From Trinickia dinghuensis (GTDB lineage: Bacteria; Pseudomonadota; Gammaproteobacteria; Burkholderiales; Burkholderiaceae): 64,000 bases of DNA. The DNA lies in contig NZ_QRGA01000008.1 of NCBI RefSeq assembly GCF_003367175.1, positions 1 through 64,000 on the forward strand, written 5' to 3'. Within the stretch, counting starts at the first letter, position 1, and every line of letters starts with the position of its first letter. The translations under genes were made by a program, and so were the position numbers. The notes under the pieces were generated by a model. The model worked only from the letters and a program-made list of their open reading frames with translations, was not told where the DNA came from and ran no database searches. This document shows, in pieces, positions 15,071-42,038 of the stretch.

Positions 15071-15080
15071 GACGACTGCC

Positions 15081-17874: not shown

Positions 17875-17952
17875 CAAAAGATGGATCATGCCGATACCAC
17901 CAGGCTCCATGAATCGCCGCGAAGCAGGTCCTTGTCGGCGAGGTGACGACGG

Positions 17953-23944: not shown

Positions 23945-24493
23945 ATGGATTTTGCATTCATTCGCGAGGGCGACACGACCTCGCACGGCGGTCGCGTGCT
24001 TGCGTGTTCGCCGGAGAATAAGTCGGACGGCGTCCCCCTCGCGCTCTTGGGCGACAAGGTGTCGTGCCCCAAGTGCGGTGGGGTCTATCCGATCGTCGGG
24101 GTCAAGAATCTCGGCGTGACGTTCGATGGTCGGCCCGTCGCCTCCGAAGGCGATATAACCGCATGTGGGGCCACGCTCATCGCATCGCAAAACAATACAA
24201 CGGCCGAACCAACTAGCGGTGGTTCGACTGGCGGTGGTTCGACTGGCGGTGGATCAATCGGCGGCGGGAAAAGCGTTCTATCCGAGACGAACCCGCAAAC
24301 GCCTTATCGCGGGCGCTTTCAGGTGCTCGATGACATCACGCGCAAGCCCGTCACGGGACACCCGTACACGGTCAGGTCGTCGGACGGTCGCGTGATCCAA
24401 GGCAAGACGGACGGGAACGGGTTCACAGAATGGCTTGAGGGACATGACGCTTCGTCGCTGATGTTCAGCCATCCCGGGAGCGAGGGAGCATGA
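23945..24493 (+). CDS. PAAR-domain protein of type VI secretion
   Basis: 182 aa. Residues 1-90 form a PAAR domain (FIREGDTTSHGGRVL, LLGDKVSCPKCGGVYPI, VASEGDITACGATLI), the cone that caps the VgrG spike. A flexible linker of three GGSTG-type repeats (about residues 92-110; tandem 15-bp DNA repeats near 24218-24265) leads to a small beta domain (YRGRFQVLDDITRKPVTGHPY and GKTDGNGFTEWL) seen in PAAR-linked adaptors. It should deliver the nuclease encoded next. The last four bases overlap the start of that gene. Confidence 0.9.
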   Translation: MDFAFIREGDTTSHGGRVLACSPENKSDGVPLALLGDKVSCPKCGGVYPIVGVKNLGVTFDGRPVASEGDITACGATLIASQNNTTAEPTSGGSTGGGSTGGGSIGGGKSVLSETNPQTPYRGRFQVLDDITRKPVTGHPYTVRSSDGRVIQGKTDGNGFTEWLEGHDASSLMFSHPGSEGA

Positions 24494-25254
24494 GCGACTA
24501 CGGTCCGGGCTCCATGACCGGTGGGGTCTCGCCCGACGGTCAAACGACCCCGGTAGGCGTCAGCGGTCGTTTGTCGAAGAAAGATCGCATGGTTCTTTGC
24601 CAGGTGCTTTGCCAGTGCAAACAGATCGGCGTTGCGACGCGTAACGGCCGAATCCAGCGCCAACGATGCGTTCAGCAGCGGTTGGACTTCGCGAACGAGA
24701 CTTCGCAGATGGAAACCGGCGCACCGACCGAGTACAAGCCTGAACAGACCTACAACATGAAAGCGGTACCTCCGGAGCCGGTGACGGACCCGGATGATCC
24801 GCTGCTTCCGCATTCTGACATCCGCCAGTGGATCAACGACTACTGGCCGGGCGGCAGCAAGAAGTACAAAGCGGGGCAAGGCAATCTTCGCCGGCCGGAT
24901 GTTGTGGTCGTCAACGACCCCACGCAGCCGCCTGTCCAGTCAAACATTAAAATGGTGGTCGAATATAAGTTCCCACCGGACGATTTCTCTCGCGATCAGC
25001 GGCAGGACTACATCGAAATAGCGGGCTCAGAATCGAAGTTCATGAGACTTGGTCCTGCAGAGTGCGGATGCGGTGACGACGACCAGAACGGTCAGGAATC
25101 GACCCAACGTCAGTCGAAGTCATCGACGTCCGACCTAGACGACCTTGCCGGCCAAAGCGGCCAAAGCGGCGGAAGCGGCGGCAGCTCGCTCCCAGGTGGC
25201 GGCAGTCTTCCGCTGCCGCCACCGGGAAGGCTTCCTCCTGGCATATTGCCTTGA
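24490..25254 (+). CDS. Putative type VI effector nuclease, VRR-NUC type
   Basis: 254 aa. RRPDVVVVND (about residue 137) followed by IKMVVEYKFPPDD and SRDQRQDYIEIAG matches the VRR-NUC fold with D..ExK active site, as in TseV-type effectors. The C-terminal 60 residues are Gly/Ser/Pro-rich and probably disordered. It is translationally coupled to the PAAR gene and is followed by a DUF3396 gene, the usual immunity partner, so it is very likely an antibacterial DNase carried on the PAAR tip. Confidence 0.82.
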   Translation: MSDYGPGSMTGGVSPDGQTTPVGVSGRLSKKDRMVLCQVLCQCKQIGVATRNGRIQRQRCVQQRLDFANETSQMETGAPTEYKPEQTYNMKAVPPEPVTDPDDPLLPHSDIRQWINDYWPGGSKKYKAGQGNLRRPDVVVVNDPTQPPVQSNIKMVVEYKFPPDDFSRDQRQDYIEIAGSESKFMRLGPAECGCGDDDQNGQESTQRQSKSSTSDLDDLAGQSGQSGGSGGSSLPGGGSLPLPPPGRLPPGILP

Positions 25255-25276
25255 CGGCGTGATGGAACGATGAGAC

Positions 25277-26491
25277 ATGAATGAAGAGCAGATGAAAGCC
25301 TGGGTCGCCGATCCGAATCGCGCAGACACACTGCCGTTTGGCTTCTACGAGCCGGCCTATCGCAAGGGAATCACCGGCGCGGCGCTCGTGGTGCGCGGCG
25401 TTGTCTACTTTCGCAACGGTCACACGCGTGCCGTGCGCGCCGCACTCGTGAAGTGCTTCGAGCAGTACAACGGGACGATCACCGAATACACCCAAGCGCT
25501 GGCCCGTGCGCTCGAGGAAAAGCCGCAGAAGGACGGCCCGCTGCGCTGGTTCTATTCGGAAGGCGAGCAGCCGATGCCGATCGACAAGGCTCCAAGACTG
25601 GACATCCTGACGACGACAGTGCCCGCGGACGAGGCGTTGGTCGTGCAAATGACGAGCGCCGACCACAAGCTTGCGACGGGTTTCTACGATTTCGGCGTGT
25701 TCACGGTAGCCGATTGGAAAGCTACTCTCTCCGGCAATCTGGACGTGCTTGATTTCACTTTCCCCCGTGCTTTCCTCGAGCACCGGCCGGGGGTATTCCA
25801 GGCGTTGTTTGCTGCGTTCTGTGAAGTCCTGCCGACGGTTCACGGGCACGCCGGCTTTGCGGTGAACCTGCCGCCGATGGAGCAAGAAGCAAACGAGGCG
25901 ACGGAGTATTTCTTCGCTCGTCGGTACGGCCCCGGAATCGACGTTGGCGATCCGATGGGTTATAGCACGGTGAGATTGGCCGGCAAGATCAAAACCGTGG
26001 ATTGGATCGTTGCCCTGAATGCAGACCTCGTGCGCGCGGCCGGAGGACCGGCCTCATGGACGTTGCCTCCCGACTGGTTCGTTCGTCAACCGTTGGGCAC
26101 TGATGGTTTGATCATCCAAGCAGGTGCCGCGCCCCAATCCGGCGTTTCGGACGGACCTGGCAAGTCGCCGCTGCCGCCGCCCGCGTACGTCCTGCTCAAC
26201 GCAGCGCTGCGCCCGATCATCGCCGAGGACATGGACATTCTCCAGCGCGGAACGCTCGACAGTACCGCCCCGCTACTGAACACCTCGGTAGCGACCGAAG
26301 CCTGGCTGAAGCGCTTCGACCTGCCGCCCGACCAGGTGACCGAACAATGGCGCGAGCTGCACAAAACACCGACGGTCGGTAGCAGCAAGGCGGCGGTCGC
26401 CACCAACCTCTTGCGGCTTCGAAAGGCCATGGGACTGCCCGAGCCCGTGCCGTCGAACGGGTTCGGATACGACGGTGGCTCGCCGGGCTAA
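25277..26491 (+). CDS. DUF3396 immunity protein for the VRR-NUC effector
   Basis: 404 aa. The DUF3396 core (GFYEPAYRKGITGAALVVRGVVYF, PMEQEANEATEYFFARRYGPGID, INTVKTVDW-like strand) occupies about the first 280 residues. This family is known as immunity for VRR-NUC type VI effectors. After a GKSPLPPP linker there is an extra C-terminal segment (about 315-375) with STAPLLNTSVATEAWL and ELHKTP that recurs in a separate gene at 31992-32387. It is 22 nt after the effector gene on the same strand. Confidence 0.85.
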   Translation: MNEEQMKAWVADPNRADTLPFGFYEPAYRKGITGAALVVRGVVYFRNGHTRAVRAALVKCFEQYNGTITEYTQALARALEEKPQKDGPLRWFYSEGEQPMPIDKAPRLDILTTTVPADEALVVQMTSADHKLATGFYDFGVFTVADWKATLSGNLDVLDFTFPRAFLEHRPGVFQALFAAFCEVLPTVHGHAGFAVNLPPMEQEANEATEYFFARRYGPGIDVGDPMGYSTVRLAGKIKTVDWIVALNADLVRAAGGPASWTLPPDWFVRQPLGTDGLIIQAGAAPQSGVSDGPGKSPLPPPAYVLLNAALRPIIAEDMDILQRGTLDSTAPLLNTSVATEAWLKRFDLPPDQVTEQWRELHKTPTVGSSKAAVATNLLRLRKAMGLPEPVPSNGFGYDGGSPG

Positions 26492-27888: not shown

Positions 27889-28056
27889 CCACGACGTGAG
27901 CGCCTGATGGCCGCGCTGGACGCCGTGAACGACCGCTTCGGACACGGGACCCTGCGGGTCGGGAACGTCGAGGGTCGCCAGGCGTGGCACATGAGCCAGA
28001 ACGCACAGGCGCCCACCTACACCACCGAGTGGGAGGGGTTGCCCACCGAGCGATGA
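27889..28056 (+). pseudogene. UmuC C-terminal (DUF4113) fragment
   Basis: RERLMAALDAVNDRFGHGTL, then AWHMSQNAQAPTYTTEWEGL, ends in a TGA at 28056. This is the C-terminal tail seen in UmuC-type translesion polymerases (LMxALDxxNxRFGRGT..SPxYTTxWDELP). The polymerase body is absent. The tail is joined in frame to the T5orf172 remnant by deletion. A second copy of the last codons lies at 28907-28954. Confidence 0.6.
28017..28038 (+). repeat. 22-bp direct repeat, left copy
   Basis: The 22 bases beginning CTACACCACCGAG are identical to 28915-28936. They encode YTTEWEG of the UmuC tail. The two copies flank the UPF0489 gene and look like an attachment-site or duplication footprint. Confidence 0.75.
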
Positions 28057-28074
28057 GCAGGTCGCCGGTACCGC

Positions 28075-28863
28075 TCAGGTCAAGGCGGTCTGCATGTGCT
28101 GCTGCATCCGCGTCAGCAGCGATTGCCCCGTGATCTTCGAGCCGGAGCACCGCAGAGATTTCACGCATCCCACTTCGATCGCGATCGCGATCGTGATCGC
28201 GAGCGCGCCTTGCACGAGCCGGTAGAACGTCGCCGCGTCGTTCGGGTCGATCGCCTTCTCCGAGTGAAAGTAATCGAGGTCGATGTCGAGGATGTAGGGT
28301 GCCGCTTCGACGCCCGGCACTTCGCGCGCCTGCGCCATGGTGTTGAGCTTGCCCAGTTCGTGTTCGAGGTAGGTCGATTCGAGCACCTGATCGACGCGCG
28401 TCCGCACACAACGGTGGTCGTGGATGGGCTTCGTGCAGCCAATCGCGTCGCAGCCCGAGCACGTCTCGTAGACCTGCGCGTCCGCGCGGTTCTCGCCGGA
28501 CAGGTTCACCACGAACGCGCGGGACACGATCCCCGCCTGGATCGCAGTCCGGATGTGCTCGTCGTGCTTAAGGTTGGCGATCGCAGCCACCACGGTGTCC
28601 TCGTCGTTCCAGTCGATCGCCGCGATCATCCCGGGTAGCATCGTTTGCATCGCCGCCTGGTTGTCGTTGCCCACCCCCTTGTGGGTCGCCCAAAAGCGAT
28701 GGTTGAAGAAGGGTGCCTTCGTGTCGATGTGGTGGTCGAGCGTGAGCAGCGCCAGTGCGCTGCCCTGGCTGCGCCGCACCTCCGCCCAGCCCAGCAAGAC
28801 GTGATGGTGCGATTCGACGATGTAGACGTCCTTGCCGCCGATGGTGACCTTCTGGTGAGACAT
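28075..28863 (-). CDS. UPF0489 (arginase-fold-like) protein
   Basis: 262 aa from the ATG at 28863 (MSHQKVTIGG). ESHHHVLLGWAEVR, LLTLDHHIDTKAPFF and YILDIDLDYFHSE are the hallmark UPF0489 motifs; the DHHxD and DxDLDYF residues resemble the metal ligands of arginase/deacetylase folds. The family is found in bacteria and eukaryotes and its activity is unknown. The gene is opposite in direction to its neighbours and sits exactly between two copies of a UmuC-tail repeat, so it seems to be inserted cargo. Confidence 0.8.
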   Translation of the reverse strand: MSHQKVTIGGKDVYIVESHHHVLLGWAEVRRSQGSALALLTLDHHIDTKAPFFNHRFWATHKGVGNDNQAAMQTMLPGMIAAIDWNDEDTVVAAIANLKHDEHIRTAIQAGIVSRAFVVNLSGENRADAQVYETCSGCDAIGCTKPIHDHRCVRTRVDQVLESTYLEHELGKLNTMAQAREVPGVEAAPYILDIDLDYFHSEKAIDPNDAATFYRLVQGALAITIAIAIEVGCVKSLRCSGSKITGQSLLTRMQQHMQTALT

Positions 28864-28906
28864 GTTGCGATGCCTGGCCGTTGAGGGGGCACCAGCATAC
28901 AACGAG

Positions 28907-28954
28907 GTGATGGGCTACACCACCGAGTGGGAGGGGCTTCCGACGGCGCGGTGA
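28907..28954 (+). pseudogene. Second UmuC-tail fragment
   Basis: The short frame VMGYTTEWEGLPTAR followed by TGA repeats the final codons of the UmuC tail at 28017-28056. It is only about 15 codons and has no start of its own. Confidence 0.5.
28915..28936 (+). repeat. 22-bp direct repeat, right copy
   Basis: Identical to 28017-28038; beyond the 22 bases the two copies diverge (TTGCCC versus CTTCCG). It bounds the UPF0489 gene on its right side. Confidence 0.75.
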
Positions 28955-28994
28955 CGTGCTACTGTTCGCCGATCACAACGGTACGGGGAACGCC

Positions 28995-29669
28995 ATGGAC
29001 GTGGCCTGGTTTCTGAACCGCCGCCTGGATTTCATCCGGCAGCTTTACGCCCGGTCGTCGGCGCCCTTCGTCGATCGTCGGACCAAGATCGAGAACGAGG
29101 AAGAGCCCTTTGTGCCTCCGTACTCGGAGGACCCGGAGCCCGCGTTCATGCTCGAATGGCAGGAGGCCAACGATTCGATCGACGTCCTAGGCCATGCGTG
29201 TCTGTGCATGCTCGCGTCGGCGTTGCAGGCATATCTGCAAACGCGCGTCAGGCTCCACTGCGAGGAGCTGAGCGCCGAGGACCGCAAACGCGTGTTCCGG
29301 AAAGGCTGGGTCCGGGGCTACGACCTGATCTTCACCGAGGCGTTCAAGATCCCGTTCGCCGACGGCCCAGTGCCCATCGCCGTCCTGGAAGACGTCGTGC
29401 TAACGCGCAACAGCATCCAGCACGACCTTGAGATCACCACCAACAGGCCCAAGCACGCCGACCGGAAACCGGGCACCGCGCGCTCGGTGTTCCTGGACGC
29501 CCGCGAGGTGGAGCTGCTCGATCGCATGGACCCGGACGCGCAGACCTGGTTGGCGCCGCCCACCGTGCACGTTAGCCAAGCCTCGCTCGAAGCCACGATC
29601 AACACCGTGGAGCGCTTCGTCGCTTGGCTCAACGCGGCCATCGAAGAGAAGCTGTACGGCCAGTGCTGA
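28995..29669 (+). CDS. Hypothetical protein with HEPN-like RxxxxH motif
   Basis: 224 aa from the ATG at 28995, with GGGGA 7 nt upstream. The chain is mostly helical. VLTRNSIQHDLE near residue 140 has the R-x4-H spacing that marks HEPN ribonuclease-type domains, with an upstream helix of conserved hydrophobics (LGHACLCMLASALQAYLQTRV). HEPN assignment is an inference from this one motif. The gene lies next to the retron, 220 nt before its candidate RNA, and could be an independent toxin-like defence gene. Confidence 0.65.
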   Translation: MDVAWFLNRRLDFIRQLYARSSAPFVDRRTKIENEEEPFVPPYSEDPEPAFMLEWQEANDSIDVLGHACLCMLASALQAYLQTRVRLHCEELSAEDRKRVFRKGWVRGYDLIFTEAFKIPFADGPVPIAVLEDVVLTRNSIQHDLEITTNRPKHADRKPGTARSVFLDAREVELLDRMDPDAQTWLAPPTVHVSQASLEATINTVERFVAWLNAAIEEKLYGQC

Positions 29670-29889
29670 GGACAGAGCCGAAATACCCGCGCCGATCGCT
29701 TGGGCACCGTCCGTACCGGCGCCTTCTGCTCGTTGGCCAGTCCCCACTCCTTGGCCTTCGGCTTGACCTCGCGAGGCGACGGTACTTCCAGCGCTCGTCG
29801 ACTCAGAAAACGTTGGACCACTGTCCACCCGCATAATCCGCCCCACGCAGTCGACAGCGCATTGCCGTGAACTGAAACTACAGCTTACA

Positions 29890-30040
29890 ATCGGATGCCG
29901 CCCCTGAACGGAGCTTAACCAGGTCCGCGTTTAACGCAGACTTTCCACGAGGCATCCCCGAGCGTACCGTACATGATCGCTCGTCCGATTTGCGGCGATG
30001 TGTGTTTACAGGAGAAAGACGGATAAGGGGCGGCACTCAC
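29890..30040 (+). ncRNA. Candidate retron msr-msd RNA
   Basis: A perfect 10-bp inverted repeat, TGCCGCCCCT (29896-29905) and AGGGGCGGCA (30026-30035), bounds a 140-nt unit that ends 17 nt before the reverse transcriptase start. This is the a1/a2 arrangement of retron RNAs. An AGC (29912-29914) just after a1 could supply the branching G (29913). Inside are a hairpin GTCCGCG..CGCAGAC (29923-29941), msr-like, and a CGAGCG..CGCTCG stem (29959-29964 with 29978-29983) nested in GCATC..GATGT (29952-29956 with 29997-30001), msd-like. Confidence 0.7.
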
Positions 30041-30052
30041 TAACGGGGAAAC

Positions 30053-31879
30053 ATGGTCGCCATTCCGAGTGCCGACGAACTCGCAGAAGCCATGCTGCGC
30101 AACCATGTGACATGGTTCTCCCGCAATGCGCTGGGCGTCGATTATGAAAACCTGAAGCGGATGATTTACCCGCGGCCGCCGTATAAGCACTTCACGATCA
30201 CGAAGCGCAACGGCAGCCCTCGGGTCATTTCGGAACCACGCAAGCGCCTGAAAATCATCCAGGAGCGCATCCTGGCCTTTCTCGAACCCCGGTCGGGTCC
30301 GTTAAAGCCCGCCGTGCACGGGTTCGTACCAAAGCGAAGCATCCTCACCAACGCACGGGTGCACTGTTCGCCAAAGAACCACCACATCCTGAACCTCGAT
30401 CTGCAAGAGTTCTTCCCGAGCATCACGTTCTATCGGGTGCGTGGCGTATTGCGCAAGCATCCGTTCAATCTGTCCCATCACGTCGCAACGGTCATCGCGC
30501 AGATCTGCACACTGGATGGCGCGCTGCCGCAAGGCGCGCCAACATCACCGTTCCTTTCCAATCTTGTGTGCCGGTCGATGGATCGCGATCTGACCGATCT
30601 CGCCCGTCGCAATCTTGCACGTTACACGCGCTACGCCGACGATCTGACGTTCTCATTTCCGTTGAAAAAAACGTCGAACCTGCCGGCCGCCGTGTGCGTC
30701 ATCGACGAAGACGGAGGAATCACGCTTGGGGCCGAACTGCACGACCTGATCACCAACAAGCACCATTTCGCGATCAATGCTGCCAAAACCCGGTTGAGCG
30801 ATCGCGGACGTCGTATGGAAGTCACGGGGCTAACGATCAACAAGTTTCCCAACGTACCTCGGATTTTCATCGACCGTATCCGCGGCGCGTTGAACGCCTG
30901 GGAGCGCAACGGGTACGACGCGGCCGAAAAGGGATGGCAAGAGCGCATCGTGAAATCAGCAACCGGCCCGTACGAGAAAAAACCCTGGAAGCGCCAAACT
31001 CGCAGTGGCAGTGCTCCAAAACTCAAAAACGTCCTGTGGGGCAAGCTGTTGTACTTGAAGATGGTTCGAGGGGACGACGATCTGATCTACACCAGGTTGG
31101 CAGAGCGCTACAACGCGGCCGTTCTCAAGGAGATGGCGGCGGGTCCGTTCTCAGCGCGAGAACTGCCGGTACAGCCGGTTGTCCGCGACTACAAGACGGC
31201 GCGCGAGGCTGTGTTCGTCGTTGAGTGGCTGGCGGACTACCATAGTTCGCCCGGTCATCATGAGTGCCCCATCGAAGCGCAAGGGACCGCCTTTGCGTAT
31301 CGAGAACTCAACTTGCTCGTCACGTGCGACCACGTGCTGGTGGGAAAGGCCGAGTTTGCAGGCATGGAAGTCCCCGCGGATTTCGACGCGCCCGAGGTCG
31401 TGAACAAAATGCTGACGGTCGTGCGCCCCGAAACCCACGAATCATGGGCCGCTCGTGTCGTCTATCGTAACAAGCAGTTCGATTTTGCGATTCTTCAGTT
31501 CGACGAGCCGCCACCTCATCATCGGTTTTTCTCGGCCATGGAGGCGCCGATTGCGCCTCATGCGGACGGCGTTCTCATCGGCTTTCCCGCCTACAAGAAC
31601 TGGAACTTGCCGGACATCAACCCACAGAAAGTACTCAACCGCACTGAGCCGAACGCCGGCATGGTCAGTTTCACCATCGCAAACTCAGGCAGCATCCGCC
31701 CAGGCAACAGCGGCGGACCGTTTACGGACGACCGATTGCGCGTCGCCGGGATGGCCCAACGCGGCGCTTACATGGGCGTCGGACACGACGAATGTCTGTG
31801 CTTCGAAGTGATGGACAAGTTCATTGGCGAATGGAAGGCCAAGAGCGCCGCGGCTGCGGTCGTTCCTGCTGCGCCGTAG
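30053..31879 (+). CDS. Retron reverse transcriptase fused to trypsin-like protease
   Basis: 608 aa. The RT part (about 1-320) has LNLDLQEFFPSI, PQGAPTSPFLSN, the catalytic YADD (about 195), and both retron signatures: NAxxH as NARVH (about 100) and VTG (about 258). The C-terminal part (about 390-600) is a trypsin-like protease with His in TCDH (about 426), Asp in FDFAIL and Ser in RPGNSGGPF (about 552), so the triad is complete. RT-protease fusion is an architecture reported among retrons (type XI in the published scheme, from memory). The candidate msr-msd lies just upstream. Retrons guard against phage; here the protease is the likely effector. Confidence 0.92.
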   Translation: MVAIPSADELAEAMLRNHVTWFSRNALGVDYENLKRMIYPRPPYKHFTITKRNGSPRVISEPRKRLKIIQERILAFLEPRSGPLKPAVHGFVPKRSILTNARVHCSPKNHHILNLDLQEFFPSITFYRVRGVLRKHPFNLSHHVATVIAQICTLDGALPQGAPTSPFLSNLVCRSMDRDLTDLARRNLARYTRYADDLTFSFPLKKTSNLPAAVCVIDEDGGITLGAELHDLITNKHHFAINAAKTRLSDRGRRMEVTGLTINKFPNVPRIFIDRIRGALNAWERNGYDAAEKGWQERIVKSATGPYEKKPWKRQTRSGSAPKLKNVLWGKLLYLKMVRGDDDLIYTRLAERYNAAVLKEMAAGPFSARELPVQPVVRDYKTAREAVFVVEWLADYHSSPGHHECPIEAQGTAFAYRELNLLVTCDHVLVGKAEFAGMEVPADFDAPEVVNKMLTVVRPETHESWAARVVYRNKQFDFAILQFDEPPPHHRFFSAMEAPIAPHADGVLIGFPAYKNWNLPDINPQKVLNRTEPNAGMVSFTIANSGSIRPGNSGGPFTDDRLRVAGMAQRGAYMGVGHDECLCFEVMDKFIGEWKAKSAAAAVVPAAP

Positions 31880-31991
31880 GCGACCAAGCGACACGAAGCA
31901 GTACCTGCCCGTCGACCCGACACATGGCGGTGACGGGTCCCTCATCCTGACCGGCGTGCTACATTCCCCGACAAAGCAACGGGGGATCAAC

Positions 31992-32387
31992 GTGCGAAGT
32001 TTCAACAGTGTAGTGGCCGAAGCACGGCTGGTCGTCAATCCGGCCGAGACGGTGGTCAGGTATCTTGAAGACCGCGGCGCGCAGGTCGCAAAGCAGCCGT
32101 TCAGCGATACGGCTGACGAGCAATTCGAACAGGCGCTGTTGGAACGGCATGATCCCCTGATTGACCTCGCCCTTGCTCGATGGTGCTGTCACCTTCCGAC
32201 GGGGCGAGCCTTGCTTGCCGCCAACGCTGGCGATAGCGCACATGCCCTCGCCAACAGTACAGCGCCCTTGCTCAATACGACCGTGGCAAGCGAGACATGG
32301 TTGCGGCGCTTCAACGTGCCAGACGACGAACTGAGCGGATACTGGGTCGAGTTGCATAAGACGCCAAAGCTCCCGCCGTCATCGTAA
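31992..32387 (+). CDS. Unknown protein sharing a C-terminal module with the DUF3396 protein
   Basis: 131 aa from a GTG at 31992 with GGGGGA 5 nt before it. The N-terminal part is acidic and unrecognised. Residues about 88-128 (STAPLLNTTVASETWLRRF, then YWVELHKTP) are strongly similar to the tail of the DUF3396 protein that ends at 26491. It lies 112 nt after the RT-protease gene on the same strand and could be a retron accessory protein, or simply a neighbour. Confidence 0.6.
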   Translation: MRSFNSVVAEARLVVNPAETVVRYLEDRGAQVAKQPFSDTADEQFEQALLERHDPLIDLALARWCCHLPTGRALLAANAGDSAHALANSTAPLLNTTVASETWLRRFNVPDDELSGYWVELHKTPKLPPSS

Positions 32388-32545
32388 TCGCTGCGCAACA
32401 TCAACGACACCGCGTGGGCCACCCTCCGCTCCACGACGATCTTCGCGGCAACGGCTTTGGCCGCTTCCTCGCCCTGCCGCCGCACCACGGCCTAGACTCA
32501 GGATTCCAGCTTCCAGTTCACGATCCGTCGACGAGTAGCTCAAAG

Positions 32546-32568
32546 CGATGTACGATTGACGTACATCG
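32546..32568. promoter_or_regulatory. Perfect palindrome, probable operator
   Basis: CGATGTACG (32546-32554) and CGTACATCG (32560-32568) are a perfect 9-bp inverted repeat with a 5-nt centre, 70 nt before the HigA-like gene. Such palindromes are the usual autoregulatory operators of HigA/XRE proteins. Confidence 0.6.
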
Positions 32569-32637
32569 TCCATCTACCGTCGCACCGCCGAAGCAATGGC
32601 TGCGAACGGCGATGGCTGATCGACTTCGAGGCAAAAT

Positions 32638-32961
32638 ATGGCCACAGTGGCCCATCATCCGGGCGAGGTCCTGGCCCAACAGCTTGAAGCAGTCGGCGTG
32701 TCGCCGACTGAGCTAGCGCGCCAACTCGACGTCCCCGCCAATCGGATTACTCAGATTGTTAAGGGCAAGCGCGGAATCACGGGTGACTCGGCACTGCGGC
32801 TTGCCCACTGGTTCGGCAACGAGCCTCACTTCTGGATGGACTTGCAAGCGCGGTACGATCTAAATCTCGCTGAAGCTGAGTCAGGGCAAGCCATAAGGGC
32901 GCTTCCCACGGGCCCAAGTGCTCGCCGTCACAAGACCAACAAACACGTGCAGGGCGCGTAG
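32638..32961 (+). CDS. HigA-like HTH regulator
   Basis: 107 aa. HHPGEVLAQQLEAVGVSPTE, LARQLDVPANRITQIVKGKR and ALRLAHWFGNEPHFWMDLQ are the standard HigA/VapI antitoxin blocks. No HigB toxin is encoded upstream: only about 70 nt lie between the palindrome and the start. It is followed after 81 nt by the nuclease gene of an ABC-three-component system, so it may regulate that operon. GAGG stands 6 nt before the ATG. Confidence 0.88.
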   Translation: MATVAHHPGEVLAQQLEAVGVSPTELARQLDVPANRITQIVKGKRGITGDSALRLAHWFGNEPHFWMDLQARYDLNLAEAESGQAIRALPTGPSARRHKTNKHVQGA

Positions 32962-33042
32962 AGAAGGACCAATGACAGGGACGAGCAAAGCCTTTTGCCG
33001 TGTCAAAATCGACGCTGAGCGCGCTTTCGAGGAGGCAGTCGC

Positions 33043-34038
33043 ATGACTGGCGCCCCGGCGGACATCACGTTCCACTATCCACCAGAGCTATTCAACCTGT
33101 TAGTGGACGTTTTACCACTTCTCAACCGCTCTAAGCGCGATGTGCTGGTGTTCTTTCGTGGTGCGGGTGTGCCTGACAGCAGGACCGCAGACATTGCCGC
33201 TCGTCTGCGAGCTACCCCGAAGGACGTCAATAAATACGACATGGTTCGAACAGTGCTCGAGCGCCTCAACGCAAAGGGTGAGTCAGCCCTCCGCGAGCGC
33301 CGTGAAGTGCTGCGACGTGTCGTGGATTTCACCAACTTCGATACATGCTGGCCAGACGATCAGCTCAAGGCTAAGGGACTCGTTGCCAGTATTCGAGAGG
33401 TCGTCAACCAAAAGGACGCCTTTACGCGCATGAACAATGCTCGTGAGGAAGAACGTCAAGCGCGTCTCGCCGAGACGCAAAGAGTTGCCGCCGAGAAGCG
33501 CGAACGAAGCTCGAAGATCGAGACTGCCAAGCAGGAGCTCTACTCGCTCTTCGGCGCCGCGATCACTGCACAGGAGCGAGGCAAGAAGCTGGAGACGGCG
33601 CTCAATAATCTCTTCCAGGCTTACGGCGTTCTCGTTCATAAAGCCTTCCATCTGGTCGGCGAAGCCGGGGAAGGGATCGTCGAGCAGATTGACGGCGTGA
33701 TCGAACTTGCTGGCGTTCTGTACTTCGTTGAAATGAAGTGGTACCGCAATCCGGTCGGCAAGCCCGAGATTTTAGAGCACCTTGTCCGCCTCATATCGCG
33801 TGCCGAGGTCCGGGGCATCTTCATCTCTGCCAGCGACTACACGGAACCCGCGATTCACACGGTACGTGAGTTTCTGCAGCATAAGGTTCTGGTGCTCGCT
33901 ACCCTCCAAGAGATCGTGCGCCTACTCGAGCAGCAGCAAGACCTCGCGGAGTTGCTAGCGAAGAAAGTCCAAGCCGCTCAGATACACAAGAATCCGTACT
34001 TCCAGCCCCTTGATGTCCGGGCGGGAGGCACGACATGA
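33043..34038 (+). CDS. Mrr-like restriction endonuclease
   Basis: 331 aa. A central coiled coil (about 125-180, rich in E, R, K) is followed by an Mrr-like nuclease domain: GEGIVEQIDGVIELAGVLYF then VEMKWYRNP (about 205-235), giving the D..ExK active site, and GIFISASDYTEPA in the later strand-helix. Its stop overlaps the start of the next gene (ATGA). It would be an additional nuclease in the ABC-three-component operon that follows. Confidence 0.82.
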   Translation: MTGAPADITFHYPPELFNLLVDVLPLLNRSKRDVLVFFRGAGVPDSRTADIAARLRATPKDVNKYDMVRTVLERLNAKGESALRERREVLRRVVDFTNFDTCWPDDQLKAKGLVASIREVVNQKDAFTRMNNAREEERQARLAETQRVAAEKRERSSKIETAKQELYSLFGAAITAQERGKKLETALNNLFQAYGVLVHKAFHLVGEAGEGIVEQIDGVIELAGVLYFVEMKWYRNPVGKPEILEHLVRLISRAEVRGIFISASDYTEPAIHTVREFLQHKVLVLATLQEIVRLLEQQQDLAELLAKKVQAAQIHKNPYFQPLDVRAGGTT

Positions 34039-35123
34039 CAACCAGTTGGAAGGACATCGCCGCGCCCGGTGGACCTGTTGGCAAAGTAACTGCGTCCCAG
34101 GTGATTCACGGGCCATCCATACCACCACAACAGCGGCTTCTCACCTACTCGCCGGATCAATGGGAAGACTTCGTGCATGAGTGGGTCCACTACTGCCTCA
34201 AGCAGTCGTACACGCAGGTGCAGCGCTTTTCCGGCTCCGGCGACATGGGCATCGACGTTGTCGGCTTCGTGGACGATCAGCGCCTCAAAGGTGTGTGGGA
34301 CAACTACCAGTGCAAGCACTACGACCATGGCCTGACGCCAGGAGATGTCTGGCCCGAGTTTGGCAAGATCATCTGGTATTCCTTCAAGGGCGAGTATGCG
34401 ATCCCGCGGCACTACTTCTTTGTGTCACCGTGGGGCGCCGGCACCAAGCTGAGCCGTCTGTTGAGTGACGCCGCGAAGCTCCGCGAGGAACTGATCGCGA
34501 ACTGGGACAAGAACGTAAAGGGCGCGATTACAAGTACGCAGGAAATCTCGCTTGATTCAGCGCTGCGCGCCTACGTCGATACTTTCGACTTTTCGATCTT
34601 CGCCGCGAAGACCTCACTCCAGCTTGTCGACGATCACCGCACGACGCCGGTACATGCCGCGCGGTTCGGTGGGGGGCTACCGCCACGGCCTATAGCAGGG
34701 AAACCTCCTGCCGACGTTGCGTCTGCTGAGAGCCGTTATGTCACGCAGTTGCTCAGTGCATACGGCGAGCACACCGGAACGCCCATAGCCGATCCGTCCG
34801 GGCTCGCGCAGCCCAAACTCAAGGAACACTTTCGTCGCCAACGTGAAGCGTTTTATGAGGCGGAGTCTTTGCGCGTCTTCGCACGCGACACGGTTCCATC
34901 AGGTACGTTCGAATCGTTGCAGGACGATATCTACGACGGTGTGATTGATACGCACGATGCCGACCATGTTGATGGCTTTCAGAAGGTATGCGCCGTCACG
35001 AAGGCTGCGCGCGAAATGCAGATCACAGCTAACGCCTTGATCTCCTGCACGAACCCCAAGGATCGGGACGGCATCTGCCACCAGCTCGTGAATGAGGAGC
35101 GCCTGCAGTGGGCACGCTCATGA
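34035..35123 (+). CDS. ABC-three-component system nuclease/effector protein
   Basis: 362 aa. The N-terminal domain has SPDQWEDFVHEWVHY, GSGDMGIDVVGFVDD and YQCKHYDH, the G-D-x-G-I-D..QCK pattern of Mrr/restriction-endonuclease-fold proteins. The C-terminal third (LKEHFRRQREAFYEAESLRV, DDIYDGVID, ICHQLVNEERLQW) is the ABC-3C C-terminal domain. Both ends overlap neighbouring genes by four bases. Confidence 0.85.
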   Translation: MTTSWKDIAAPGGPVGKVTASQVIHGPSIPPQQRLLTYSPDQWEDFVHEWVHYCLKQSYTQVQRFSGSGDMGIDVVGFVDDQRLKGVWDNYQCKHYDHGLTPGDVWPEFGKIIWYSFKGEYAIPRHYFFVSPWGAGTKLSRLLSDAAKLREELIANWDKNVKGAITSTQEISLDSALRAYVDTFDFSIFAAKTSLQLVDDHRTTPVHAARFGGGLPPRPIAGKPPADVASAESRYVTQLLSAYGEHTGTPIADPSGLAQPKLKEHFRRQREAFYEAESLRVFARDTVPSGTFESLQDDIYDGVIDTHDADHVDGFQKVCAVTKAAREMQITANALISCTNPKDRDGICHQLVNEERLQWARS

Positions 35124-35614
35124 GTCAAAGACGGAAACCCGTCACTTTCAACGGCCCCCTTGAAGCCGGAATCCGCGCTGTCGCCCTCCTCGGTGCTGCT
35201 TATCCGCAGTCCTACGATCTCCAGCGGCTTGTCGCATTTGACTATCTTCTGGTACATACGGCTGACGTTGGCGGACCGGACAATCTCCATCCATCGACGC
35301 CTATGCACTCTGCCGAGCTTCTGGTACGCCGCAAGCTCGTCGAGCAGGCACTACTTCTAATGATGACCCGAGACCTTGTCGAGCGCGAAGTCACACCGGA
35401 CGGAATCAAGTACGTGGCAGGCGAGAACGCCGCCACGTTCCTTTCGTCCGTCTCGTCGCACTATCTACTCGCCCTTAAAGATCGCGCGTCGTGGCTGGTC
35501 GAGGTACTTGGCGAGCACACGGATAACGACTTCCAAGCGGTAATGCGTCGCTTCTTTGACAGATGGGTCGAGGAGTTCCAACAGGTCGAGCAAAGCCTTG
35601 GAGGCAACGCATGA
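35120..35614 (+). CDS. ABC-three-component system middle component
   Basis: 164 aa from the ATG at 35120 that overlaps the preceding stop. NGPLEAGIRAVALLGAAYP, DLQRLVAFDYLLVHTADVGGP and LHPSTPMHSAELLVRR are typical of the small middle component, which is a winged-helix-like protein. It joins the effector and the SMC-like ATPase of the system. Confidence 0.82.
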   Translation: MSQRRKPVTFNGPLEAGIRAVALLGAAYPQSYDLQRLVAFDYLLVHTADVGGPDNLHPSTPMHSAELLVRRKLVEQALLLMMTRDLVEREVTPDGIKYVAGENAATFLSSVSSHYLLALKDRASWLVEVLGEHTDNDFQAVMRRFFDRWVEEFQQVEQSLGGNA

Positions 35615-37488
35615 CGGCAGCGACGCCTGGCTTCCGCTTACGCTTCCTCGGATTCTTTGGTCCGCAGAAGCAACCAGCGACGGTGACCTTCGGCGCAGGC
35701 TTGAATGTCATCTACGGCGCGTCGAACACCGGAAAATCGTTCATCGTCGAGGCCATCGATTTCATGCTTGGTGGCAAGCCGCCTTTGCGTGACATCCCCG
35801 AACGGGTCGGCTACGACCTCGTCCTGTTGGGCCTTGAGACGCTCGATGGCCAGTCATTTACGCTTTGGCGCAGCATGGACGGCGGCGGTTTTCGACTCTA
35901 CGAAGGGCTGCATCAGACGCCACCTGCGACCGACGCCCCATACAAGCAGCTCGACGAACAACATAGCGACAGGAACGACGCGAATCTTTCTTCCTTCCTG
36001 CTGAGTCTTTGCGGCCTCGGAGGCAAACGAGTACGCAAGAACTCCCGCAACGAAACCAACAGTCTGAGCTTTCGCAACATTGCGCGCTTGATGATCGTCA
36101 ACGAGACTGAGATCACACAGCAAAGTTCTCCGCTCTTTGATGGTAATCCCATCGCCAACACGCCGAACCTCGCAACGTTCAAGCTACTGCTAACAGGTAC
36201 GGACGACTCGGCGCTGGTCGCCAGCAATAAGCGCGAGCCTGAGGATCTATCCCGTGAAGCCCAGTTGCAGCTTCTTGACCAACTTCTTGGCGATTACCGG
36301 GACCGACTCAAAGAGTTGACGAGGAGCCCCAAGGAGTTGGAAGAGCAGCTTGAGAAGATCGACACATCGCTGCGCCAGCAAGCCGCTCAGGTTAACACCA
36401 CTGAAGCGGAGTTTCAGCATGCCGCCGGGAAACGACGTGAACTGCGCAAGAAGCTGGAGGAGAGCCGCGAGCGCAGAACAGAGGTCGGCGCGATGCTCGA
36501 GCGGTTCAGCCTTCTCGACAGGCACTATGCATCCGACATTGAGCGGCTGCGCGCTGTCGAGGAGGGCGGGACGCTGTTTAATGTCCTGGGCTCCGGGCAT
36601 TGCCCTCTATGCGGAGCATCGCCGGCGCATCACCGCGCTGACGCCGAATGCGACGGAAACATTAACGCCGTAGTACAGGCGGCGCGCACGGAAATCGCCA
36701 AGATTGAGATCTTGCGCGGTGAACTCTCGGTGACCGTGCATAGTCTTGAGCGCGAAGCCGCCAGCTTTGACAGCAAAATGCCCGCTGCTGTTCGCGAGCT
36801 CGCGTCAATCTCCGAGTCGGTTGAAGAGCTTATCGCACCCAAGCTTTCGAACCTCCGTAAGTCCTATTCTGAATTTGCCGACAAACGCGCCGAGGTGCGT
36901 GAGGCACTGGGACTCTACGCCACAGTACAAGACATCGAGCGCCGCCGCATTGACCTCGAAAGCGGCGCCGAGGAGGAGAAAGCTGGCGCCCTTGCCAGCG
37001 CCGACATCCCCACTACCGTTGCCCACAGTTTTGCCAAGACCGTGGAGGGCATCCTCGCCGGTTGGCACTTCCCGGAAACCGGCGATGTTTACTTCGACTC
37101 CAAGACACGCGACATCGTTATCGCCGGGAAGTCACGCAGTGCTTTCGGCAAGGGGCTTCGTGCCATCACACACGCGGCATTCACACTTGGGTTGCTAGCT
37201 TTCTGCCGCGAGCGCCAAACACCACACACGAGATTCGTCGTCCTCGATTCGCCGCTGCTCGCCTATCGGGAACCCGATGGTACGGAAGACGATTTAGCTG
37301 GCACCGACCTTCAGGAGCAGTTCTATTCGTACCTAGAGACATTGTCCGCCGATACGCAGGTCATCGTGATCGAGAACACTGATCCGCCCGACGCAATTAT
37401 GAAGCTCGAGCAATCGCTGATGTTCGGTAAGAATCCGCACCATGGGCGGTATGGCTTGTTCCCGCATCCGATGGCGCCCACAGAGTAG
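35611..37488 (+). CDS. ABC-three-component system SMC-like ATPase
   Basis: 625 aa from the ATG at 35611, overlapping the preceding stop (ATGA). Walker A is YGASNTGKSFIVEAIDFML (about 34-42). Long coiled coils flank a zinc-hook-like CPLCGASPAHHRADAEC at about residue 331. The C-terminal ATPase half contains a FVVLDSPLLA Walker B. It is a Rad50/SMC-type motor that would sense DNA structures and license the nuclease partners. It ends the four-gene overlapping operon. Confidence 0.88.
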   Translation: MTAATPGFRLRFLGFFGPQKQPATVTFGAGLNVIYGASNTGKSFIVEAIDFMLGGKPPLRDIPERVGYDLVLLGLETLDGQSFTLWRSMDGGGFRLYEGLHQTPPATDAPYKQLDEQHSDRNDANLSSFLLSLCGLGGKRVRKNSRNETNSLSFRNIARLMIVNETEITQQSSPLFDGNPIANTPNLATFKLLLTGTDDSALVASNKREPEDLSREAQLQLLDQLLGDYRDRLKELTRSPKELEEQLEKIDTSLRQQAAQVNTTEAEFQHAAGKRRELRKKLEESRERRTEVGAMLERFSLLDRHYASDIERLRAVEEGGTLFNVLGSGHCPLCGASPAHHRADAECDGNINAVVQAARTEIAKIEILRGELSVTVHSLEREAASFDSKMPAAVRELASISESVEELIAPKLSNLRKSYSEFADKRAEVREALGLYATVQDIERRRIDLESGAEEEKAGALASADIPTTVAHSFAKTVEGILAGWHFPETGDVYFDSKTRDIVIAGKSRSAFGKGLRAITHAAFTLGLLAFCRERQTPHTRFVVLDSPLLAYREPDGTEDDLAGTDLQEQFYSYLETLSADTQVIVIENTDPPDAIMKLEQSLMFGKNPHHGRYGLFPHPMAPTE

Positions 37489-37531
37489 CGCGCATCCCTC
37501 GATGCTGACTTGTACTATTGCAAGACGTGCC

Positions 37532-38413
37532 TCAGTCCGCTCCTGGAAGGCCATTAAATTCTTTTTGTGCAATGTCGCGAAGACGATTTCGCTTTGCCAA
37601 TATATTGCGAAAGTAGTCGATCTCAAGCGCCACAGCCTCTTGGTAGAGAAGATGCCGTTCTCCGGAAATTTCCTCCTCTATCGCGACGGTCATCGTCTGC
37701 TCGCTCCCAGAATCGGATTTTTTGATGAGGTGGTTTGTCACGAAAAAATGAAGCTGTGCTGTTGAATCGCCTTTCCTCCTGATTCGCTGCCGAGACAGCT
37801 CGAAGTTCTGGCTTTTCTTAACAGCGCGGGCAAGCACCGAATCGTCTTTCGGCCCGCAGCCGGTGACTTGCTGATTTCCGGCCATGTACAACAAGGCATA
37901 GGGCACGTTGGAAGTGCTTACTTCCCGATAGAGATAGCCTTCCTGCTCGTGGAATTGTTCGAGCATCGACGCGAACAGCCAGTCTGACACCGACGCGCCG
38001 AGAAATCGTTCGACCATGTAGTGAACCGCATCGGCATGATTCACGAGTATGTCGATGATGCCGGCCGTAATCGCTCCGGGTCGTCGGGTTTTGTTTCGGC
38101 CGTTAAACGATTTGGGGTCCGCGAGAGAGCACTCGTCGTATGCATCCTTATCGAACTTGCCGATGCCCTCAATGTTCCCAACAGCGTGCTTGGCGTACAA
38201 CGGCAAGCTCTTTCCGCCGGCGTCTACCTTGCGGTCAACGTCTAAGTTGACGATGTGCACCGGGTTCTCGCACTCCGGACAGACCGCATAGTGCATCGTC
38301 TTGCCGGCACGGCTCTGATACCAAGGATATTGCTTGCCTGTCGCAAAATGGAAGCCCGTCTCCGTAAGCTTCTGGTATTCGTGCTCTCCCTGCCGCAACT
38401 TGAAAACGTTCAT
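37532..38413 (-). CDS. Unknown protein, third gene of the Gabija-like operon
   Basis: 293 aa from the ATG at 38413 (AGGTGA 8 nt upstream; another ATG at 38425). YAVCPECENPVHIVNLD near residue 45 is a single CxxC knuckle. Later parts (GAITAGIIDILVNHADAVHYMVERF) suggest a helical core. I do not recognise a family. It starts 56 nt after the UvrD-like gene on the same strand and converges with the ABC-three-component operon. It may be an accessory of the Gabija-like pair or a separate defence gene. Confidence 0.7.
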   Translation of the reverse strand: MNVFKLRQGEHEYQKLTETGFHFATGKQYPWYQSRAGKTMHYAVCPECENPVHIVNLDVDRKVDAGGKSLPLYAKHAVGNIEGIGKFDKDAYDECSLADPKSFNGRNKTRRPGAITAGIIDILVNHADAVHYMVERFLGASVSDWLFASMLEQFHEQEGYLYREVSTSNVPYALLYMAGNQQVTGCGPKDDSVLARAVKKSQNFELSRQRIRRKGDSTAQLHFFVTNHLIKKSDSGSEQTMTVAIEEEISGERHLLYQEAVALEIDYFRNILAKRNRLRDIAQKEFNGLPGAD

Positions 38414-38469
38414 CGCTACATTCACCTGTCAATCGTCGCTTTCGTTGAATGCCCCCACCGATTCATCGC

Positions 38470-40137
38470 TTATGGGAGGCTGAGAAACGGCGTGGCATAG
38501 GCCATGAATTCGTTGTGAGTCGTTCTATTTTCCTGCCATCGGTAGGGATTCGACGGAGGCATTTGTCGGCGATCGCTTACGGTCAAGACAAGACGACTCT
38601 TCGCCCGAGAGACCGCCACAAAAAAAGCACATCGCTCTGCATCTGCGTTGCCCCAGAACGTTTGGTTTTCGACACCGAGAATGACCACCGAATCGAATTC
38701 GAGCCCTTTGCTCTTGTGTATGGTGAGGATTCGTACTGCCTGATCGTCGGAAAAACGCTCTAGTGCCTTCGGCAAGTCAGGCTCGATCTTCAGCAGTTCT
38801 TCGATCCGAACCTTGGTGTCAGCAATGACCTCCTTCAATCGAGCCGTGGACTCGTAGTCCGGCGAAAGTGCTGACAGGGTCTCGATCCCCACATGGCGCA
38901 AGAATTCACGTACGGACTCCCACCAATCCGTTGCAGGCTCGCCCAACGATTCGACAAGAACAGCCTTTTTCCGCTGCTCCGCTATGAAGCGCTGGGTGTT
39001 TCGCCGCATGTTGGCCTGGACGTCTTCATCACCGAAAGGAATCAACTGGTCCATTAGACGAATCCAAGCCTTGGGCGCGCGCTGCCCGTACAGACAGGAC
39101 AGGTAGTCAACGATGAGTCTTGCGGCTGGCTCTACCGAAATGTCCTGGATCTGCTGCTCATTTCGGAATGGGATATTTCGCCGCTCCATCGCTGCCATCA
39201 GATGGTCGGCATACAGGTCGGGTTGTCGGGCGACCAGAATTGCGATTTCCGACGGTACAAGCTTGTCATGATTGATCCAGCCGTCAATTGCGTTAGCCAC
39301 AAACTCAGCTTCCTGCTGGCTGTCCGGAAAACGCCACGCGAAGATGAGCCCCTCCTCACCTCCAAGTTGCTCATCGGGCATAACAGAAGATGGGTCCATC
39401 ACACGGATGATCTCGTTCTGCATGCGCAACAGGCGGGGCTTCGAACGGAAGTTGCGGTACATGTTGAGCGGCACCGCACCAAAGTCTGTTGCAAAGGTCT
39501 GGAAGATACCGTCTAGAGCGCCCGCCCATCCCATAATCTTCTGTTTCGTGTCTCCGACCGCCGTAAGGCGGATGGCCGTTCTTTGAAAGGCAATCTTCAC
39601 CAACTCGTACTGGTGGTTAGTGCAGTCCTGAAACTCGTCCAAGAAGACGTCGCTGTAGGTCTGACGGACAGCACGACGGGCAACGGCCGAGATTCTCAAA
39701 ATCTGGGTAGCCAGAGGCACCAGATCCGTGAATTCGATCTGGCGTCGCGCGACTCGCTGGCCACCAATCCGGTAATCGACATCAAGGGCATCTTGCCCGG
39801 TTAGCACCGGACGAAACCGATCAATTATCCGCTTCGCAAAGGCATGGAAGGTGTAGCTGTCGAACCGCGCGGCCATATCTGAACCGCACCGGCACTTCAC
39901 ACGCTCCTTCAGGTTTTTACTGGCGTCAACTTTGAACGAGATAGCCAGTATCCGCTTTGGATAGGGGCAGGTTCCGGTACGCAACAGGAAGTCGGCGCGC
40001 TGTGCCAGCATTTCTGTCTTGCCCGCCCCCGGCCCCGCTGTCAGGGCAAGGCAGCGTTCCGCTTCCATCGCCGCGCGCCAGGCGTTGGGTTCGAGCGTCA
40101 GCCCATCTGCTGGATGCCAGGTGTCCGCTGCGATCAC
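38470..40137 (-). CDS. UvrD-like helicase, GajB-type
   Basis: 555 aa. Walker A AGPGAGKTEMLAQR (about 34), FLDEFQDCTNHQYE Walker B (about 175), GDTKQKIMGWAGA and LTIHKSKGLEFDSVVI are superfamily 1 helicase motifs of the UvrD/PcrA group. Length matches GajB of Gabija systems. Its start overlaps the end of the OLD-family gene (40134-40137), the classic gajA-gajB arrangement. Confidence 0.87.
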   Translation of the reverse strand: MIAADTWHPADGLTLEPNAWRAAMEAERCLALTAGPGAGKTEMLAQRADFLLRTGTCPYPKRILAISFKVDASKNLKERVKCRCGSDMAARFDSYTFHAFAKRIIDRFRPVLTGQDALDVDYRIGGQRVARRQIEFTDLVPLATQILRISAVARRAVRQTYSDVFLDEFQDCTNHQYELVKIAFQRTAIRLTAVGDTKQKIMGWAGALDGIFQTFATDFGAVPLNMYRNFRSKPRLLRMQNEIIRVMDPSSVMPDEQLGGEEGLIFAWRFPDSQQEAEFVANAIDGWINHDKLVPSEIAILVARQPDLYADHLMAAMERRNIPFRNEQQIQDISVEPAARLIVDYLSCLYGQRAPKAWIRLMDQLIPFGDEDVQANMRRNTQRFIAEQRKKAVLVESLGEPATDWWESVREFLRHVGIETLSALSPDYESTARLKEVIADTKVRIEELLKIEPDLPKALERFSDDQAVRILTIHKSKGLEFDSVVILGVENQTFWGNADAERCAFFVAVSRAKSRLVLTVSDRRQMPPSNPYRWQENRTTHNEFMAYATPFLSLP

Positions 40138-42038
40138 TCTGGCAACTCCTCCAGCTTGGCGATCACCGCGTCCGCCAGGCGACTCAGAGACTCAGGCATG
40201 TCAGCGAGGAGTTCTTCGTCGCTCAGTTGGGCCAATGCGTCGATGTGGGCTGCCGGCTTGCTACCTAGCTTGAAGCGCTTGTGATAGGTGCCGAACAGGC
40301 CGAGCTCGTTCGCATTGTATTGGCTGGCATCGTGGTGGCTGTCGCCGAGGACGGCCTTGATGGTGGGCTCACTCGGTGGATTCGATTCAACGCCATACTC
40401 ATCCGGATAGGAAAGAAGCATCGCGAAGTCGAGGTCCATCGGAAAAGAGAAAAAGACTCCGCGTGCTTCAAGCGCCTCGATGTACCACGGGTACTTTCGG
40501 ACCTTATTTTTGTCTGAATTCCACTTGGGAATTCCGTAATTTTCAGGAAGGACGTCTTTGGCTCGGTACTCCGATAACTGATCGTTGGCATATTTGAATC
40601 GTCCCCATCCACCTTGATACCGGGCGACATCCAAATCGAGCAAGGTGAGATGCGGGATTTCGAGCGCGGAGAGCAGGCGCCAGAAGTGGTTGACATGCCG
40701 GCCTCCGAGTGGCGCGACAGTCACTGCGGACTCGTCCACCGGGACGCCCTTGGCACGCAGGATTCGGGGCAAGACGATTTCTTCGCTGTCACCTTCTCCC
40801 AGGATGACCAACCGGGAAAAGTAGATTTCAGGGTACGCTTGTACAGCCTCCCGAACGAACTTGTGTGCCTCGTCCGTTTTCTTGGGCATTCGAATGCGCG
40901 TGATCTTTGTCGTACGTTCATCCGTGAGTCGCAGGTAGCGAATGTGCTGCGGGTCGACTCGCCTCAGCATGGAGGGCGCGTGCGTGGCGATGAGGGCCTG
41001 CGCGTCCTCGTTTCCCGTCATGGCCACCAACGCATTCACGATCCTTCCCAGGTAATGCGGCGACAGGCTGTTTTCGGGCTCCTCGAGCGCAACGATCGTA
41101 AATACGGGCGGACGCAGCTTATCCGGGTCGAATGAATCGTCCTCGCCGGCGAGGACGGCGCGCCCAATGGACTGGGCTGAGAGCACCAGAGACAAGTAGA
41201 GCATGGACTTCTGACCATCGCTCAGTCTAGAGAAATCGACTAGTTCTTCGTCGTGTCCGGGCGAGAAGGAGACAGACAAATGTCGTAGAAGGGCCTCAAT
41301 TTCGGATGCGACAAAGGTGATATGGGGATCGGCAAAGAAACTGCCTTTGTGCAATGTACCCCAGGTCGTCTTCAAGCTCTCGCTCAAAGCCGCAATGGAG
41401 GGGTTTGCGGCGAGACTTTCACTAATCTGGTCCGTGAAGCCTTTGACTTCCTCGCGCTCGTTTTCCCAGTTAACTGCTCTCAGCATCCGCCCAAGCAACG
41501 CACTTGTACTGTACGCAATGTGTTCCGCAGGATCGCGGCGCGCAGGCAGGTAGTGAACCTGCACGTGATTTCTTTCGGCTCGTGGAACCTGGGCAGTCGT
41601 CAGGGGAGACCCGTCACCATTCAGATCCAGCACATAGACCAAGGTTTCCTCGATATCGCCATCCACTCCCATTGTGGCACTCAGCCGATACCGAACTCGC
41701 GGTAAGCCATCAGCGGTGTCCAAGCGCATGTGGCTGAAGTGCGGTGCCACCGTCGAATTTTCGCCATCTTCATCGAGTTCAGGGAAGACAAAATCAGCTT
41801 CGATCCAGAGTTGTCTTTCGTCCGGAACAGCATCCTCGTCGTATGGAACGTGAAAATCCGAGCGCTGAATCCGTCTCAATGAGGGATCGAAGGCGAACAG
41901 ACGGCATAGAGCCTGAAGTGCCGCCGTCTTGCACGAGCCGTTGGGCCCGATCAAGTATGTAATGTCGTTGAAGGTCAGTTCAGTTGCGTCTGGTCCGAAT
42001 GACAGAAAACCGGACAGCCGGATGCTCTGTAGTTTCAT
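40134..42038 (-). CDS. OLD-family ATPase/TOPRIM nuclease, GajA-type
   Basis: 634 aa from the ATG at 42038 (MKLQSIRLSGFLSFG); an extension to 42113 is less likely. Walker A GPNGSCKTAALQAL (about 31), ABC signature LSDGQKSML, Walker B VALEEPENSLSPHYLGRI, then a TOPRIM domain with LVILGEGDSEE and LLDLDVARYQGG. The E and DxD residues are the metal ligands of OLD nucleases. With the UvrD-like gene overlapping downstream it forms a Gabija-like antiphage pair. Confidence 0.87.
   Translation of the reverse strand: MKLQSIRLSGFLSFGPDATELTFNDITYLIGPNGSCKTAALQALCRLFAFDPSLRRIQRSDFHVPYDEDAVPDERQLWIEADFVFPELDEDGENSTVAPHFSHMRLDTADGLPRVRYRLSATMGVDGDIEETLVYVLDLNGDGSPLTTAQVPRAERNHVQVHYLPARRDPAEHIAYSTSALLGRMLRAVNWENEREEVKGFTDQISESLAANPSIAALSESLKTTWGTLHKGSFFADPHITFVASEIEALLRHLSVSFSPGHDEELVDFSRLSDGQKSMLYLSLVLSAQSIGRAVLAGEDDSFDPDKLRPPVFTIVALEEPENSLSPHYLGRIVNALVAMTGNEDAQALIATHAPSMLRRVDPQHIRYLRLTDERTTKITRIRMPKKTDEAHKFVREAVQAYPEIYFSRLVILGEGDSEEIVLPRILRAKGVPVDESAVTVAPLGGRHVNHFWRLLSALEIPHLTLLDLDVARYQGGWGRFKYANDQLSEYRAKDVLPENYGIPKWNSDKNKVRKYPWYIEALEARGVFFSFPMDLDFAMLLSYPDEYGVESNPPSEPTIKAVLGDSHHDASQYNANELGLFGTYHKRFKLGSKPAAHIDALAQLSDEELLADMPESLSRLADAVIAKLEELPE

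Follow-up and report, generated by a model that had tools for sequence, protein, structure and literature searches.

The window, by which we mean the whole stretch of 64,000 nucleotides analysed here, does contain a type XI retron whose msr-msd RNA is well supported, and RT-protease fusions of this kind are already a named retron type (RT-Protease_XI in PADLOC). The retron is very probably a self-contained unit made up of one promoter, one structured RNA (approximately 29896–30035) and one RT-protease. The autonomous unit that is indicated consists of an RNA and one protein, and the small gene that follows them was removed as a false lead.

The protein is encoded by a single gene at 30053–31879 on the forward strand, whose 608-aa product joins a retron RT (Pfam match at residues 49–262) to a C-terminal trypsin-like domain (residues 411–567). 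The Pfam matches to RVT_1 (6.4e-20) and Trypsin_2 (6.9e-12), together with the PADLOC match to RT-Protease_XI (1.6e-159, residues 25–591), support the retron with RT-trypsin fusion that a preliminary description of this DNA had proposed. RT-Protease_XI is the best match by far, with 530 bits versus 347 for RT-TIR_XII; the next models, RT-TIR_XII and RT-Toprim_I-C, have their best stretches in the RT part, and membership of type XII (RT-TIR) or type I-C (RT-Toprim) was rejected because these stretches all stop by residue 359. The preliminary description had also listed YADD, NAxxH and VTG in the RT and a full triad in the protease, and all of these are indeed present: NARVH (residues 100–104), YADD (194–197) and VTG (257–259), which we take to be retron RT motifs, and H427/D477/S553, with the serine in GNSGGP. 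In an alignment of the window protein with 15 homologues that are 96% to 30% identical to it, none of the 16 proteins departs from N100, A101, H104, YADD, VTG or the triad, and each of them also matches RT-Protease_XI; two loci with broken reading frames (L005 and L030) were left out of this alignment and kept in the RNA counts. Compared with its two closest relatives, the fusion gene has dN/dS values of about 0.05 and 0.06, and its two halves separately give 0.04–0.08; judged from its sequence, the gene is intact and under purifying selection. Among solved proteins, the RT is closest to that of retron Ec67. For the protease half, a profile search gave matches to HtrA/DegP proteases (among 60 of 131 PDB sequences listed), and a search with this half alone gave no solved relative at E up to 1. 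The fusion is predicted to have protease activity.

The msr-msd RNA lies directly upstream on the same strand. Its a1 arm (29896–29905) and a2 arm (30026–30035) are perfect complements and correspond to the 10-bp pair that had been claimed upstream of the RT. The a1 arm is followed by a linker (29906–29922), the expected site of the branching G, in which CTTAA (29914–29918) is invariant, and then by the msr hairpin GUC C GCG UUUAA CGC A GAC (29923–29941) with six pairs, two of them showing compensatory changes. The rest of the msr and the msd template occupy 29942–30025, with a putative border between the two, and contain columns conserved in an alignment of nine sequences, namely GAGGCATCCCC at 29949–29959 and AGGAGAAAG at 30010–30018, just before a2. 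The latter was also considered as a ribosome-binding site and rejected in the window, since it ends 34 nt before the ATG and by inspection no ATG, GTG or TTG lies between. Taken alone, the window gives a modest signal: 4 of 100 dinucleotide shuffles reach a helix equal to or longer than the a1/a2 pair, the fold of 29885–30052 has a z of −1.0 and is no better than that of shuffles, and Rfam holds no match to the msr-msd RNA. The a1/a2 pair, weak in the window alone, becomes convincing because the comparison with related loci supports the pairing.

Nine close loci, presumably all Burkholderiaceae, were aligned (the window, L003, L004, L005, L007, L008, L046, L009 and L010). The a1/a2 helix and the msr hairpin together comprise 14 pairs, and all 126 of the 126 cells are paired. 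Changes on both sides occur at four of the 14 pairs (two in a1/a2 and two in the msr hairpin), a number reached by 2 of 500 shuffles, and the covariation score of the two helices is reached by none of 500; helix partners that were slid against each other are only 33–55% paired. The count of further pair types lies below that of the shuffles (8 versus a mean of 9.7). The covariance among homologous loci that the preliminary description had proposed to look for is seen in these compensatory changes.

Nine distant loci (L029, L030, L033, L034, L035 and the plasmid loci L047–L050), a Bacillus among them, have different arm sequences and helices of 7–14 bp in the same place upstream of the RT. In a blind search the best Watson-Crick helix upstream of the gene was a1/a2 in 16 of the 18 loci, with 7–14 pairs and spans of 120–159 nt, the exceptions being L009 and L030, whose helices contain G-U pairs; the Watson-Crick helix is individually significant (at most 5 of 100 shuffles) in only nine of the 18. 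A covariance model found matches in 6 of 299 family genomes, all 14–59 nt before a match to the RT-protease gene, and the genes concerned are the six full-length RT-protease genes found in these 299 genomes. All six matches are training members, and scoring, under strict filters, covered no more than the top ten candidates in each genome, so that the scan shows linkage rather than independent discovery; applied to the nine distant loci, the model had no reach. At the level of sequence, a covarying a1/a2 helix and msr hairpin are linked to the RT-protease gene. Conserved structure is found upstream of related RTs, and covariation, linkage and the helices at related loci together bear out the msr-msd assignment.

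The RNA is preceded by a conserved, putative sigma-70-like promoter on the same strand (29862–29891), composed of TTGCCG (29862–29867), an 18-nt spacer and TACAAT (29886–29891), which ends 4 nt before a1. The distance between TACAAT (TAAAAT in L009) and a1 is constant across the nine close loci, and a TTG-type hexamer stands 18 nt before it in eight of them, L007 having GTGACG; in L008 a spacing of 17 nt scores one higher than 18. The pattern is absent in the five distant loci that were scored (L029, L030, L033, L034 and L035). Within 28001–33500, the DNA that the window has in common with its closest relatives L003 and L004 by blastn runs from 29873 to 31851 or 31858, the sole further match being 39 bases of L004 near 28010; L003 and L004 have upstream DNA in common with each other, and the downstream ORFs vary between the homologues compared. 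As the DNA common to the closest relatives holds the RNA and the fusion gene only, these two are probably the whole system.

Among 24 genomes with matches, 18 were dropped because they match just the RT part or hold fragments (including L014 and L023), as were L032 and L036–L039, which match the RT part only, and 20 of 24 plasmid records with less than 80% cover; L006 and L045 were left out as being, by their length, the same contigs as L003 and L004. Viral contigs gave no relative, plasmids gave no DNA-level relative of 29600–30052, and five phage records gave matches, none of which spans over 80% of the query. Broken type XI genes occur in L005 (a frameshift, 725–2505) and L030 (an in-frame stop, 580–2190), fragments with stops are present in genomes G117 and G204, and the broken or fragmentary genes include L014 and L023. 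These broken and fragmentary genes may point to rapid gain and loss.

The host genome comprises 7.4 Mb in 49 contigs, and downstream of the retron it encodes Lamassu LmuA/C/B (34035–37488) followed by Gabija GajB/GajA (38470–41954). Defence genes were also found at all five further Burkholderiaceae loci (L073–L077), where 8 of 10 hand-picked large neighbours matched; they include Argonaute, Gabija-like genes, a Hachiman-like helicase with IetS, and type IV restriction. Given the defence genes beside the window retron and at all five further loci, an anti-phage function of the retron is likely.

Several other features of the window and of related loci are worth recording. An Mrr-like nuclease gene, Lamassu (LmuA, LmuC, LmuB) and Gabija (GajB, GajA) stand side by side in 33043–41954, with a gene lacking a family match between Lamassu and Gabija (37532–38425), and a HigA-family antitoxin gene (TIGR02607) is located at 32638–32961. 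On the other side of the retron, a PAAR protein, a VRR-NUC protein and a TsiV immunity gene form a row at 23945–26491 that constitutes a T6SS effector-immunity set. Another type XI retron, 53% identical and at locus L009/L072 (genome G189), has two similar neighbours: an ORF resembling by eye the PAAR protein of the window, at about 1 kb, and a gene that has the TsiV tail, at about 3 kb; perhaps the two retrons share an insertion hot spot. Further away there is a rich fluoride regulon with five fluoride riboswitches in about 14 kb (5053–19199), at 5053–5119 on the reverse strand and at 5249–5315, 7193–7260, 10311–10381 and 19138–19199 on the forward strand, and their neighbours are a CLC channel gene, two DUF190 genes, enolase, complex-I-like genes, an MFS transporter and a MutS-domain gene.

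Two expectations were not borne out, an invariant branching G and a predicted cDNA that folds better than shuffles. The candidate branching Gs in the window are 29906, 29910, 29911 and 29913, and across the nine aligned sequences the stretch from a1 to the msr hairpin has no invariant G; the branching G put forward earlier could for this reason not be confirmed. Folding of the msd into a DNA hairpin is a general feature of retrons, and to our knowledge such a hairpin is not a defining feature of type XI. With the 75 nt before a2 taken as the predicted cDNA, folding did not exceed that of shuffles at 17 of the 18 loci, L029 (z −3.2) being the exception, and a second check of six predicted cDNAs with a folding tool found none significant. 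What recurs at this place is a short motif: AGGAGAAAG or a near copy stands just before a2 at each of the nine close loci, and AAGAGAAA is shared by L029, L030, L033, L047 (as AAAGAGAAAA) and L048, five of the nine distant loci; it was not found in L034, L035, L049 and L050. Copying of AGGAGAAAG or AAGAGAAA would make the 5' part of the cDNA rich in pyrimidines. It is conceivable, though we consider it rather doubtful, that type XI msDNA is unusual in having little or no hairpin and, in many cases, a conserved pyrimidine-rich single-stranded 5' part, which the fused protease or the RT would read directly and which would keep the protease inactive. The motif read in this speculative manner would be the complement of AGGAGAAAG or AAGAGAAA, that is CTTTCTCCT or TTTCTCTT. 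If this were true, the alarm would be the loss of a short sequence-specific single strand and not of a hairpin.

The proposed course of events is as follows. The RT would prime on a G near the a1 end and copy approximately 70 nt of RNA into single-stranded DNA, and the RNA-cDNA hybrid would stay on the RT and hold the fused protease inactive, in the way that Retron-Eco2 restrains its Toprim domain. Damage to the cDNA by a phage would then free the protease, which would cleave proteins of the host or the phage, or else a pro-effector encoded at another site, so that the infected cell is stopped. That the protease is expected to be inactive until the cDNA is damaged follows from the analogy with Retron-Eco2, an RT-effector fusion that inhibits itself within an assembly of RNA and cDNA and is probably triggered by a phage nuclease (PMC12405507). 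On this analogy, gating of the protease by the cDNA appears reasonably probable. Both the target of the protease and the timing of cutting can now be tested directly with one 2-kb cassette.

The last step has a variant, compatible with the rest, in which the protease acts in trans to switch on a separate pro-effector, and the retron is only the trigger of a two-step killer. This is possible, if on balance unlikely; the invariant triad speaks for it, as does a precedent, since in some Hachiman and AVAST systems the defence enzyme has a fused trypsin-like domain that cleaves a pro-nuclease, the gene of which typically lies upstream (PMC12799240). In that precedent the protease is N-terminal, whereas that of type XI is C-terminal, and the gene upstream of the retron (28956–29669) has no Pfam, PADLOC or NCBIfam match. 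In an all-against-all comparison of the 18 loci (ORFs of at least 80 aa from a simple caller, with flanks of unequal length), no neighbour gene recurs beside more than three of them, and a recurring partner gene as the protease substrate was rejected on this count. The recurrent neighbours were prokaryotic Argonaute genes, near three of the 18 loci (L004/L077, L074 and, as an 81-aa piece near the contig start, L079), and Gabija-like genes (window, L075 and L050). With no recurring neighbour, the substrate is probably encoded elsewhere. A nearer candidate would be the small extra gene pointed out earlier behind the fusion (31992–32387, forward strand), acting as a third component, be it substrate, inhibitor or accessory of the protease. 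The ORF is open, on the same strand and only 112 nt behind the fusion gene, but its membership in the retron did not hold: blastn against homologous retron loci (nine, of which eight are distinct, with about 1.4–4 kb of downstream DNA each) found nothing matching it, and two of these loci have retron proteins that are 96% identical. The ORF has no Pfam, PADLOC or NCBIfam match, 31955–32253 is 88% identical in DNA to the start of an unrelated 455-aa ORF in L051, and residues 84–128 match the C-terminal ends of proteins that are for the most part about 400 aa long, among them the TsiV immunity protein of the window itself (25277–26491). The ORF is best read as a chimeric remnant in which the beginning of one gene has been joined to the tail of a TsiV-type immunity gene, and a role in the retron is extremely unlikely. 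Identity as a TsiV T6SS immunity protein was likewise rejected, as only the C-terminal tail is in common and Pfam gives no match.

It may also be asked whether the RNA is copied at all. The RT could resemble template-independent defence RTs and merely bind the a1/a2 RNA as a scaffold, in which case the lack of a conserved cDNA hairpin and of an invariant priming G would be natural. However, NAxxH and VTG, which are not known outside retrons, are invariant, the closest solved relatives are retron RTs, and a1/a2 with the msr hairpin matches the layout given for Eco2 (PMC12405507), which makes this reading very unlikely. Even less credible is that the window retron is a decayed, non-functional copy: decay does occur in the family, with broken genes at two of the 18 loci (L005 and L030) and the fragments in G117 and G204, but the window gene is intact, its dN/dS is low as given above and its helices are kept. 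A copied RNA and a functional RT-protease remain the preferred reading.

Mestre et al. in 2020 is reportedly the founding paper of the type XI retron class. Among the matches listed in the open-access literature, none appears to be an experimental study of an RT-protease (type XI) retron, most subscription papers being outside this scope, and a term search in PMC12548924 found none of 'type XI', 'protease', 'trypsin' and 'type XII'. Pairs of a trypsin-like protease and a pro-nuclease in Hachiman, AVAST, Lamassu and DRT likewise place a trypsin-like domain on a defence enzyme; they differ by the partner nuclease gene upstream and the N-terminal protease (PMC12799240), and no such partner stands out beside the type XI loci, at which neighbours were searched for MBL folds in part. 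Retron-Eco2 (Ec67; RT-Toprim, type I-C) has a Toprim RNase in place of the protease and a 67-base msd hairpin where none is predicted beyond chance here, yet it is alike in having its effector fused to the RT C-terminus and in its a1/a2 pair with one short msr stem-loop (PMC12405507). The closest counterpart is the type XI retrons themselves (PADLOC PDLC02959/PDLC02960), from which no difference of kind was found, the profile match starting at residue 25: they have the same single protein, a retron RT with a C-terminal trypsin-like protease, and for the RNA described here the borders, the promoter, the helices and a covariance model are now given.
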